Of a stretch of DNA of 15,070 bases, positions 3,531-6,403 are shown one piece after another. Source of the DNA: Desulfobacula sp. (GTDB lineage Bacteria; Desulfobacterota; Desulfobacteria; Desulfobacterales; Desulfobacteraceae); assembly GCF_021107415.1 (NCBI RefSeq), contig NZ_JAIOSW010000008.1, forward strand, positions 1 to 15,070, read 5' to 3'. The position numbers and the translations under genes were made by a program. The number at the start of each line of letters is the position of its first letter. Positions within the stretch are counted from its first letter, which is position 1. The notes under the pieces are model-generated. The model made no database searches. It was given only the letters and a program-made list of their open reading frames with translations, and was not told the DNA's origin.

Positions 3531-4976
3531 ATGCTACAACCAATTAAAGATCCTTCTTACATTGATCTTGATCTTAGCCTGAAATATAAAATTAAGGATA
3601 TTGCCCTTGCAGAAGAGGGACATAAAGATATGCAGCTTTCCGAAAAAGAGATGCCGGGGCTGATGGCCATCAGGAAAAAATATGGTTCTGAAAAGCCCTT
3701 TAAGGGTTTGAAAATCATGGGCAGTCTTCATATGACCATCCAGACGGCCATGCTTATTGATACCCTTTATGAGCTGGGGGCTGATATCCGGTGGGCAACC
3801 TGTAATATTTTTTCCACCCAGGATCATGCAGCAGCAGCCATTGCACAAAAAGGATCTGCAGCGGTATTTGCATGGAAAGGTGAAACCCTTGAGGAATTCT
3901 GGTGGTGTACGGAACAGGCACTGATCTGGCCGGATGGTTCAGGACCCGATATGATTGTTGACGATGGAGGGGATGCAACCCTTTATGTTCATCAAGGCGT
4001 TAAAATGGAAAAAGATCCTTCTTTGCTTGATATTAAAACCAATAGTCTCGATGAAAAATGCCTGGTGGACAGGTTAAGGGTAAGTGTTAGGGAAGATCCA
4101 AAAAAATGGACCACTATTGCCAAAAAGATCCGAGGGGTTTCAGAAGAGACAACAACCGGTGTTCACAGGCTGTATCAGCTTGCTGAAAAAAATGAGCTGC
4201 TTTTCCCGGCCATCAATGTCAATGATTCCGTGACCAAATCCATATTTGATAATCTTTACGGATGTCGGGAATCCCTTGCAGACGGGATCAAAAGAGCAAC
4301 CGATATCATGCTTGCAGGTAAAACTGTTATTGTGGCCGGATATGGTGATGTGGGTAAAGGGTGTGCCGCATCCATGAAAGGGTATGGTGCCATTGTATGG
4401 GTCACTGAAATTGATCCGATTTGCGCCCTCCAGGCCGCCATGGAAGGCTTTAGGGTGGTGACAATGGAAGAGGCCGTTCCCCATGGAGATATTTTTGTGA
4501 CAGCAACCGGGAATTACCATGTTATTAAAGGCGAACACATTAAACAGATGAAGGATGAAGCCATTATCTGCAACATCGGGCATTTTGATAATGAAATAGA
4601 AATGAGTTATCTGGATAATAATCCAAAGGCTGAAAAAATTAATATTAAGCCCCAGGTGGATAAGTGGATATTAGAATCCGGCCGGTCCGTTATCGTTCTT
4701 GCTGAAGGAAGACTTGTGAATTTAGGCTGTGCAACCGGACACCCAAGCTTTGTGATGAGCAATAGTTTTTCAAACCAGACCCTGGCCCAGATTAAACTGG
4801 CCAAAGAAGATCTTGAAATCAAGGTCTATACTCTGCCCAAGGAACTTGATGAAGAAGTCGCAAGATTTCATTTGAAAAATCTTTCCGTAACCCTGACCAG
4901 GATGACCCAGGAGCAGTCAGATTATCTTGGAATTCCCATCAATGGGCCGTTCAAACCAGAGATTTACAAGTATTAA
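3531..4976 (+). CDS. ahcY: S-adenosylhomocysteine hydrolase (adenosylhomocysteinase)
   Basis: Reversibly splits SAH, the product inhibitor of methyltransferases, into adenosine and homocysteine, with tightly bound NAD+. The 481 aa are in the usual bacterial range, including the insertion seen in many proteobacterial forms. Motifs in order: [16 protein letters not shown] and [13 protein letters not shown] in the N-terminal substrate domain, the NAD-binding GYGDVGKG beginning at residue 270, [14 protein letters not shown], the [11 protein letters not shown] segment, and [13 protein letters not shown] followed by the C-terminal tail ending in FKPEIYKY that contributes to the neighbouring subunit's NAD site. 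AAGGAG sits at good spacing before the ATG. Adenosine produced here would feed the nearby PfkB-family kinase. Confidence 0.98.
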
Positions 4977-4990
4977 TTGTTTTTCTTTGC

Positions 4991-5025
4991 CTTGTGGGTA
5001 AAGGGCAGTACCTTTCGCCCACAGG
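4991..5025 (+). terminator. Stem-loop after ahcY
   Basis: TGTGGG (4993-4998) pairs with CCCACA (5018-5023), and after a small internal loop AAAGG (5000-5004) pairs with CCTTT (5011-5015) around GCAGTA. It begins 15 nt after the ahcY stop. It is strong but has no U-tract, so it may be a 3' end protecting hairpin or a weak terminator. Confidence 0.55.
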
Positions 5026-5051
5026 CAGATCATTAAAGGCTTGTTTTAAAT

Positions 5052-5069
5052 GGTTTAAAATTTTGAACT
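5052..5069. promoter_or_regulatory. Upstream copy of a paired palindromic element (candidate activator site)
   Basis: GGTTTAAAATTTTGAACT; its core is GTTTAA-N4-TTGAAC, one base off a perfect inverted repeat. It matches the second copy at 5140 in 16 of 18 bases. Centre is about 241 nt upstream of the predicted sigma-54 start, within the range of enhancer-binding-protein sites. Confidence 0.45.
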
Positions 5070-5139
5070 CGCTATTCTTATTTGCTTATCCAATTATTTC
5101 AGTATGTTGTAATTTCGTCGAAAAATGAAAACGCATAAT

Positions 5140-5157
5140 GGTTCAAGATTTTGAACT
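5140..5157. promoter_or_regulatory. Downstream copy of a paired palindromic element (candidate activator site)
   Basis: GGTTCAAGATTTTGAACT; the core GTTCAA-N4-TTGAAC is a perfect inverted repeat. It lies 88 bp from the first copy, with its centre about 153 nt upstream of the predicted sigma-54 start. No gene occupies this stretch on either strand, so the conservation between the copies is not due to coding. Confidence 0.5.
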
Positions 5158-5275
5158 TTTAATGCCCGGGAAAGCAAATGATATCTTTGTAATTTTTATA
5201 AAGCAAAAGAAATAATTTATTGAAATGATCGATTAACAGGCGTTTCGTGGTTTGATGTAATTTAATTGAAGGGAA

Positions 5276-5290
5276 TGGCACGGGAATTGC
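5276..5290 (+). promoter_or_regulatory. Sigma-54 (RpoN) promoter
   Basis: TGGCACG-GGAA-TTGC matches the -24/-12 consensus at every fixed position, with exactly 10 nt between the GG and the GC. The predicted start is near 5302. No protein gene lies downstream on this strand for more than 1.3 kb, and a strong terminator follows within about 75 nt. Confidence 0.85.
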
Positions 5291-5301
5291 TTTACAAATA
5301 T

Positions 5302-5377
5302 TTAAGAAAGATTAATTTTTTCATCTTTTTTTCCTTTTCTGAAAAAGGCTGCTTCCAAAAAAAGCAGCCTTTTTCAG
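5302..5377 (+). ncRNA. Candidate sigma-54-dependent small RNA (~75 nt)
   Basis: The interval from the predicted sigma-54 start to the intrinsic terminator is about 75 nt and contains no usable start codon. The first ~37 nt are unstructured and rich in U and C, including UUUUUUCAUC and UUUUUUUCCUUUUC, and the rest is the terminator hairpin. This short, single-stranded-seed-plus-terminator layout is that of trans-acting sRNAs. Known sigma-54-driven sRNAs (Qrr, GlmY, CrcZ, Pxr) show that such arrangements exist; I do not recognise this RNA as one of them. Both ends are predictions. Confidence 0.6.
5339..5377. terminator. Strong bidirectional intrinsic terminator
   Basis: Bases 5339-5354 and 5362-5377 are perfect 16-bp complements around a 7-nt loop. 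The GC core GGCTGCTT/AAGCAGCC is flanked by A5 and T5, so it ends transcription rightward (the small RNA) and leftward (the selenoprotein gene, whose stop is at 5417). Confidence 0.9.
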
Positions 5378-5416
5378 TTTTAATTCCAGGTAAAAGTGCC
5401 AAATCAATATCAGCGT

Positions 5417-5635
5417 CTATTCTTTTATCAGTTTGATGATTTCATCGTTATCCGGGAATCGTTTTGTCTGATGTTTTGAAAAAATGGTCTTTTCATCCAC
5501 AATAATGTCGTAGATACCCTTGGAACCCGGGATCAATTGAGGGGATATACCGAATTCCTTTTTTATCATTTCCGCCAGACCGGCAGCCCTTGGTTCATAG
5601 TTTCAGACTGAACAATAATTTATTTTTATATCCAT
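5417..5635 (-). CDS. SelW/Rdx-family selenoprotein with in-frame UGA (Sec)
   Basis: Read through an in-frame TGA at codon 11 (plus-strand 5603-5605), this gene gives a 72-aa protein that begins MDIKINYCSVUNYEPRAAGL. The C-x-x-U motif at residues 8-11 sits just after the first beta strand, as in the thioredoxin-like Rdx/SelW family, and the family's Y-x-PRA, GSKGIYDI and FSKHQTKRFP-type segments follow. These proteins are proposed thiol/selenol redox proteins; the partner is unknown. A SECIS-like hairpin lies 16 nt after the UGA: CUGCC/GGCGG with the loop GGUCU, the same loop as in the E. coli fdhF SECIS. The ATG is preceded by AAAGGA. A single-residue Cys homologue would be expected in relatives that lack Sec. 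Automatic callers would either drop it or start after the UGA. Confidence 0.88.
5582..5596 (-). promoter_or_regulatory. Bacterial SECIS-like hairpin of the selenoprotein gene
   Basis: On the mRNA, CUGCC pairs with GGCGG (five pairs, one G-U) around the loop GGUCU, whose first base is 21 nt after the UGA. In E. coli fdhF the equivalent distance is 18 nt and the loop is also GGUCU, the part bound by SelB. It lies inside the coding sequence, as bacterial SECIS elements do. Confidence 0.75.
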
Positions 5636-5667
5636 GTGATTTCCTTTCATCTGTTTTATGTGGTTCA

Positions 5668-5696
5668 AGTGTAGCAGTTAAAATAAAAATGTTCAA
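5668..5696 (-). promoter_or_regulatory. Possible promoter of the selenoprotein gene
   Basis: On the minus strand TTGAAC (plus 5691-5696), a 17-nt spacer and TACACT (plus 5668-5673), 32 nt before the ATG. Both boxes are 4/6 matches. A second TTGAAC overlaps just downstream (plus 5663-5668), the same half-site as in the paired elements at 5052 and 5140. Confidence 0.4.
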
Positions 5697-5740
5697 ATCA
5701 GATGTTTGAAAAAAAATATTGTGAAACAGGAACTTGATTC

Positions 5741-6403
5741 CTATTTGTTCCTTTTATCTTTATTGTCGGCGATAAATTTTTTTATTTTTTTTAGATAGGG
5801 AATCAATACAATAATGACAATGGCAGCAAACAGATACTGGATCATGTGAAAGCGCTGCTCTAAAAAATCAAAGCAGTAAAACCAGATAATGATGGCGGTC
5901 AGGGTGCCCAGAAACGTGGCGGAAAAATTTCTGAACAGGCTTAACCTGAGCATGTATCCGATAATAGATCCCACTACAGGTCCGGTCACCGGGAGGGGAG
6001 CCATAACAAAGAGAAAAATGCCGATCCATCCAAATGGTTTTATTTTGTCTTTTTGTTCAAGTGCTTTTCCAGTTAGCCGGGCCATGAGTTTTATCAGCCA
6101 TTCGTTTCTTAGATAATTGGTGGTGCTTAGCACAAATCCGGCATAGGTGAAACAGACAATGAGCACCTCAATATATAAATTATATAAAATGGTAGGAAAG
6201 GCACCGAATCCATTGAGAATACACAGGCCAATGCCGGCAGCCCGACCGCCAACGGTATGGGCAACAAGAACAAGAATAAGAATTTTGGCTATTTGAATTT
6301 CAATTATAGCATAGGATATGCTAAAAACCATGAGCAGAGCACTTAAAAAAAAACCGCTTAACAGCAGTCTGCCCTCAATGGTATTTATTAGGGTATGTTT
6401 CAT
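5741..6403 (-). CDS. Small integral membrane protein, COG2426/Sm_multidrug_ex-like
   Basis: A 220-aa hydrophobic protein with about six membrane segments and a Lys-rich C-terminal tail (KKIKKFIADNKDKRNK) expected in the cytoplasm. The diagnostic region is FLFVMAPLPVTGPVVGSIIGY around residues 130-150, matching the P-x-P-x-TG signature of the family called 'small multi-drug export protein' (PF06695). That name rests on thin evidence and the transported substrate is unknown, so I would not call this a drug exporter. The start is the only plausible ATG, with a weak AAGAUG site 11 nt upstream. It ends 106 nt upstream of the selenoprotein gene on the same strand; AGGAAC/GTTCCT at its 3' end followed by T8 (5702-5709 region) may be a weak terminator. 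It is divergent from the DUF1538 operon. Confidence 0.75.
   Translation of the reverse strand: MKHTLINTIEGRLLLSGFFLSALLMVFSISYAIIEIQIAKILILVLVAHTVGGRAAGIGLCILNGFGAFPTILYNLYIEVLIVCFTYAGFVLSTTNYLRNEWLIKLMARLTGKALEQKDKIKPFGWIGIFLFVMAPLPVTGPVVGSIIGYMLRLSLFRNFSATFLGTLTAIIIWFYCFDFLEQRFHMIQYLFAAIVIIVLIPYLKKIKKFIADNKDKRNK

Follow-up and report, generated by a model that had tools for sequence, protein, structure and literature searches.

The 15,070-nt stretch of Desulfobacula sp. DNA analysed in this study (hereafter the window) contains, at positions 5276–5379 of the forward strand, a unit whose features support its reading as a sigma-54-dependent small RNA (sRNA) gene, and the targets of this RNA are probably porin mRNAs. 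We consider it likely that the gene belongs to a two-component/sigma-54 circuit that produces an sRNA blocking porin translation without Hfq. In such a circuit, a membrane histidine kinase would phosphorylate an NtrC-type response regulator, which would bind paired GTTCAAAATTTTGAAC palindromes and activate sigma-54 RNA polymerase at 5276–5291. The window locus (paralogue A) would then yield an RNA of roughly 78 nt, and a second copy adjoining the regulator gene (paralogue B) would yield a sister RNA; the U/C-rich seed would pair over about 20–26 nt with the Shine–Dalgarno (SD) sequence, the spacer, the AUG and codons 2–4 of a main outer-membrane porin mRNA, Hfq being dispensable for this pairing. 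The proposed consequence of pairing over the porin start is that the 30S subunit would be excluded and porin synthesis would fall; we infer the direction of control, repression, from where the pairing falls.

The promoter of this unit, TGGCACGGGAATTGCT at 5276–5291 (+), is the sole match in the window to TGGCACRNNNNTTGCW, which we take to be the sigma-54 −24/−12 consensus. Only 0.01 matches to this consensus are expected in the window, and at least one match was obtained in two of 200 shuffles, which confirms the full-consensus −24/−12 element claimed for this interval in a first-pass annotation of the DNA. The sRNA gene would extend from about 5302 to 5379 (+; ~78 nt), with the 5′ end placed at 5302–5304 from promoter geometry and the 3′ end placed from the terminator. 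It comprises a seed, UAAUUUUUUCAUCUUUUUUUCCUUUU, at 5313–5338 (+), which is antisense to the SD sequence, start codon and codons 2–4 of porin mRNA, and an intrinsic terminator hairpin at 5339–5377 (+) with 16 pairs, a 7-nt loop and a following TTTT. The terminator stem covaries, with two-sided compensatory changes in six of 15 consensus pairs. Part of the seed is predicted to pair weakly with the RNA's own 5′ leader. The 16-bp terminator described in the first-pass annotation therefore stands, whereas the distance of ~75 nt that it gave between promoter and terminator corresponds to the whole transcript, the gap from the −12 element to the stem being only ~47 nt.

The upstream neighbour, ahcY (3531–4976, +), marks the paralogue A locus. 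The stretch between promoter and terminator had been described as free of ORFs, and indeed no listed ORF of at least 60 aa overlaps 4977–5740; a convergent ORF located in the latter interval at 5420–5635 (−) is interrupted by an in-frame TGA. By reading, this ORF encodes a SelW/Rdx-like selenoprotein with a CSVU motif, and it converges with the sRNA on one common terminator. The convergent selenoprotein gene noted earlier is thus real, but it is incidental to the sRNA and lies outside the proposed circuit because other sRNA copies have other neighbours. The adjacent region at 5741–6403 (−) encodes a small multidrug export-like membrane protein (PF06695).

A total of 80 loci were fetched using the window AhcY as the query, and blastn with positions 4970–5440 detected the element in 22 of these 80, all 22 of which retain a TGGYA-N-TTGY promoter and the terminator. 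Among the five closest orthologues, sequence identity is 99% in the seed, 96% in the promoter and 89% in the terminator, and reaches 94% and 85%, respectively, in two upstream palindromes regarded as candidate enhancer (activator) sites (site 1, GTTTAAAATTTTGAAC, 5053–5068; site 2, GTTCAAGATTTTGAAC, 5141–5156; both unstranded). The spacers, leader and flank are 64–76% identical. A model of the RNA only (R1), built from 23 sequences and applied with a threshold of E up to 0.01, matched 47 of 50 related genomes, with at least two matches in 34 and two copies judged credible in 32; these 50 genomes are those with the AhcY closest to that of the window and not a random sample, and most genomes analysed are MAGs. 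The copies in the genomes missed by R1 (G040–G042) were recognised by the seed pattern. The culturable hosts Desulfobacter vibrioformis DSM 8776 and D. latus have both copies. The R1 search gave 82 places, 78 of which were kept after removal of one without a mapped locus (G012:C5) and three judged false (G035:C20, G050:C10 and G016:C193, minus strand). The promoter is present in 73 of the 78 copies, compared with a chance rate of ~1% per 60 nt, and the remaining five comprise three one-base variants, one copy at a contig edge and one lacking the promoter.

A wider model (R2), without promoter columns, was applied at E up to 0.001 in order- and phylum-wide runs with stricter filters. It gave matches in 19 of 291 genomes from the order and in one of 395 genomes phylum-wide, the latter being G001 itself. 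The order-wide run revealed 16 new places that had not been used to build R2, 15 of which were assessed (a place in G328 had no locus). Twelve of these 15 copies have the strict promoter, with the palindrome also found in 11 of the 12, and three have a one-base variant; 14 of the 15 adjoin the regulator gene or ahcY. The promoter–terminator unit, on whose conservation in relatives the first-pass annotation had staked its reading, was therefore examined and found to be conserved. The conserved promoter, candidate enhancer sites, seed, covarying terminator and paralogues that keep the same parts all support the sigma-54-dependent sRNA gene that it proposed.

No Rfam family was identified in the window at gathering score, GlmY/GlmZ included; Qrr likewise gave no match in the window, and none at E up to 1 for positions 5000–5420. 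A Thr_leader candidate (RF00506; 34.6 bits, E 7.5e-5) fell below the gathering score of 55 bits and was rejected. A search of the open-access PMC literature revealed no report of the sRNA family among the matches listed. This RNA appears to represent an undescribed sRNA family of Desulfobacterales without an Rfam match.

A gene encoding an NtrC-type sigma-54 response regulator is located upstream of 35 copies in 35 genomes (paralogue B), and ahcY is located upstream of 18 copies. The regulator contains receiver (REC), Sigma54_activat and Fis-type HTH domains, and its sequence is similar to those of NtrC-family, ZraR and LuxO structures. A kinase gene precedes it in 23 genomes, a count to be read with many stretches being too short to show the position of the kinase. 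The regulator beside paralogue B is probably the activator of the sRNA. The earlier suggestion that the RNA connects the signal of an activator to post-transcriptional control is thus supported, in that a probable activator is encoded next to paralogue B and the RNA probably targets porin mRNAs. Downstream of the regulator orthologues in G180, G255, G144 and G141 (61–65% identical), no promoter/palindrome match was detected within 700 nt. Copies are also found in other neighbourhoods. Desulfotignum-type genomes contain a second copy at another conserved locus away from ahcY (L094, L103, L128, L130, L131, L136 and L140; gene clusters c6, c7 and c8), and the copy outside the regulator locus in G046 and G047 (L152 and L150, respectively) adjoins what reads as a pair of amino-acid ABC transporter genes (clusters c23 and c24).

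The motif of both window sites, the palindrome GTTCAAAATTTTGAAC, was found in its strict form before 48 of 73 copies, 17 of which have it twice, and is absent from the other 25; four permuted control palindromes were found in none of the 73. The palindromes are mostly located about 123–149 and 200–240 nt before the promoter, and their helical phasing is weak (R at most 0.42). Across 10 whole genomes, 21 of 28 palindrome sites lie upstream of sRNA copies and seven elsewhere; of the six of these seven that were examined, none has a sigma-54 promoter within 320 nt, and five are inside ORFs. Similarly, 19 of the 22 strict sites in L001–L080 (725 kb) are upstream of a copy, with two in L009, on a contig that stops short of the sRNA position, and one elsewhere. 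We consider the paired palindromes to be candidate enhancer sites for the sigma-54 activator. At L330, the palindrome pair GTTTCCAAATGGAAAC / GTTTCCACGTGGAAAC replaces GTTCAAAATTTTGAAC at 73–109 nt past the regulator gene, which suggests a changed recognition sequence of the regulator.

The reverse complement of the seed, GAAAAGGAAAAAAAGATGAAAAAA, reads as an SD sequence, a spacer and ATG AAA AAA. In the close relative G001, the porin start is predicted to form 26 contiguous Watson–Crick pairs with the window sRNA, at a duplex energy of −30.5 kcal/mol. A search of 16 genomes with the first 20 nt of the seed complement, allowing up to two mismatches, identified 62 sites, comprising 28 sRNA copies and 34 others, all 34 of which were inspected. 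Eighteen of the 34 non-self sites are at gene starts (a 64-aa GTG-start ORF, L215, was left out of this count), and 13 of these 18, spread over 10 genomes, are porin-like by reading. The other five read as one DctP-like, two ModA-like (one of these targets is truncated by a contig end; L259 is cut by a contig end), one TPR and one enoyl-CoA-hydratase-like protein. Starts of PhnD/TtrS-like periplasmic binding proteins at L232 (G047) and L235 (G046), the latter being the one scanned, match the seed complement within two mismatches. No porin start was found within two mismatches in six of the 16 genomes, among them G006, in which the match contains a 1-nt indel. In the clade with CCTCC seeds, a porin start within two mismatches is present in two of 10 genomes, and a clade swap test was mild for this clade (z −2.91 own vs −2.53 other).

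Porins chosen by the NCBIfam model NF033939 numbered 18 in 11 of 20 genomes, and two of them had already been found by the seed pattern. In a ranking of duplex energies against 827 background gene starts, 17 of the 18 are within the top 0.4% when paired with the sRNA of their own genome. The background contains many orthologues of the same genes and was scored with the best start and one sRNA only, whereas for each porin the most favourable in-frame start and sRNA copy of its genome were taken. Those 17 include all 16 porins that the pattern search missed, and the porin of G050 ranks at 3.7%. The porin HMM A3 identified exactly one gene each in G001, G006, G010, G015, G026 and G039, of which only G006 is independent of the model because A3 was built with the other five; G046 has three such genes, G047 has two partial matches, and G035 and G037 have none. 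An extended duplex at the ribosome-binding site of porin mRNAs is accordingly predicted across several genomes, and these mRNAs are the probable targets of the sRNA.

Pfam gave little on porins, and NCBIfam, homologue searches and the fold were therefore used to assess the identity of the targets, whose NF033939 matches are mostly below the cut-off. The G001 target is recorded as a hypothetical protein; among its 30 relatives, two bear the name porin and 10 contain PF13609. Its AlphaFold model (mean pLDDT 85.7) is a barrel of about 18 strands that matches MOMP, AlgE and OprD-type structures. The Desulfobacter family targets (L200, L201, L204 twice and L205), which account for five of the 13 porin-like sites, have weak family matches, yet their relatives are named porin by NCBI. 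Targets of the L207 type have a weak NF033939 match, and none of 38 relatives is named porin.

At the sequence level, seed and porin start have changed together in one distant genome, G170 (the genome of L065, Ca. Desulfaltia bathyphila), in which the sRNA was placed by synteny only and is not among the R2 matches. Here, downstream of a regulator orthologue (63% identical) come a palindrome pair of different sequence, a sigma-54 promoter and an sRNA whose seed has changed. With up to three mismatches, the complement of this seed has a single further occurrence in the genome, which lies at the start of a gene for a 428-aa NF033939-like porin and matches over 26 of 27 nt. The G170 sRNA is predicted to pair with its own porin at −31.7 kcal/mol and with the G001 porin at −17.5 kcal/mol, and the window sRNA with the G170 porin at −22.0 kcal/mol; one background gene, at −32.1 kcal/mol with the G170 sRNA, lies below the −31.7 kcal/mol of its own porin. 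In G099 and G182, the seed complement was found at no gene start within three mismatches, and the only other sites are without an ATG.

The seed complements generic SD and start features, and the RNA might instead be a broad antisense silencer of starts with a strong SD sequence, an A-rich spacer and ATG AAA AAA, acting on many abundant exported proteins such as porins and solute-binding proteins. DctP-like, ModA-like (by reading) and PhnD/TtrS-like exported proteins match too, and the top background gene encodes an exported protein, a solute-binding protein by reading. We regard such broad silencing as unlikely, although deserving of some weight, because only one of 30 background starts of the MKK/MKR/MKN type reaches −25 kcal/mol with the window sRNA, porin-like genes make up 13 of the 18 gene-start matches, and the only other match of the G170 seed is a porin. 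Many sRNAs titrate proteins, and the low-complexity, U/C-rich seed would suit a CsrA- or chaperone-like sponge, in which case its complementarity to porin starts would be a side effect of their A-rich sequence. The joint change of seed and porin start in G170, together with the seed CAU and CCUU/CCUCC remaining in register with the ATG and SD sequence, makes protein binding of this kind very improbable. Slighter still is the chance of a minus-strand product, in which the reverse complement of the seed, with its good SD sequence and ATG, would start a small peptide (MKKLIFLKYL in the window, read by eye): the ORF ranges from 3 to 26 codons among the copies compared, with little in common beyond the start, and the sigma-54 promoter and terminator are oriented the opposite way, and this reading was rejected because the ORF is unconserved. 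A chance promoter upstream of the terminator of the convergent gene, the least credible explanation of all even though the terminator fits the selenoprotein gene as well, is refuted by the conservation of the unit in other genomes and contexts.

Antisense control of porin translation is the reading that we prefer. Beyond the circuit itself, and with less confidence, we lean toward a dedicated porin off-switch, in which the only recognisable direct output of the pathway would be two Hfq-free sRNAs pairing over the SD sequence, AUG and first codons of the main porin genes, and in which the seed would evolve together with the porin start throughout Desulfobacterales. Hfq (TIGR02383) was detected in none of 20 genomes, type strains included, in a search that was positive in five of 14 control genomes, among them that of E. 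coli. With a duplex of this length, the RNA may not require a chaperone.

Control of porins by sRNAs is known mainly via sigmaE or OmpR, with Hfq. We treat the enterobacterial porin sRNAs, Qrr and GlmY as analogies. Similar to MicA, RybB, MicF, MicC and OmrAB, the RNA described here would exert an antisense block on the initiation of outer-membrane protein translation; those sRNAs, however, have sigmaE/OmpR promoters and are Hfq-dependent, whereas the promoter here is of the sigma-54 type and no Hfq was found. Several sigma-54 sRNA paralogues, one NtrC-type regulator and seeds directed at ribosome-binding sites are features common to the Qrr/LuxO system of Vibrio, which differs in that the RNA here has no Rfam match, no detected Hfq, different targets and a different lineage. 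GlmY acts via GlmZ and RapZ, and the RNA here is without an Rfam match. In Enterobacteria, the GlmY system resembles the present one in the location of the sRNA gene beside its kinase/regulator pair, GlrK/GlrR (alias QseEF; PMC8745638), and in the sigma-54 promoter.

The closest published architecture, by description in the available parts of two reports (PMC3333781, PMC4641369), is that of D. vulgaris DVU0679 and DVU0653, two sigma-54 response regulators, each listed with a downstream ncRNA. As in paralogue B, the ncRNA (Dv_sRNA2 in the case of DVU0679) is directly downstream of the regulator's own gene in a sulfate reducer. The function of Dv_sRNA2 is stated as unknown, and no target is named, in those parts of the reports (PMC3333781, PMC4641369). 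The best Pseudodesulfovibrio regulator match is 51% identical and has no promoter/palindrome match downstream.

For an sRNA family of environmentally important sulfate reducers that appears to be undescribed, our analysis provides a predicted signal path, activator, binding sites, RNA and target. In this family, porin control appears to be run by sigma-54 in genomes without detected Hfq. The family also suggests a hypothesis for the ncRNAs that adjoin response regulators in D. vulgaris. If the off-switch proposed here is true, it would be the sigma-54 counterpart, in Hfq-less bacteria, of the sigmaE porin-sRNA stress response.
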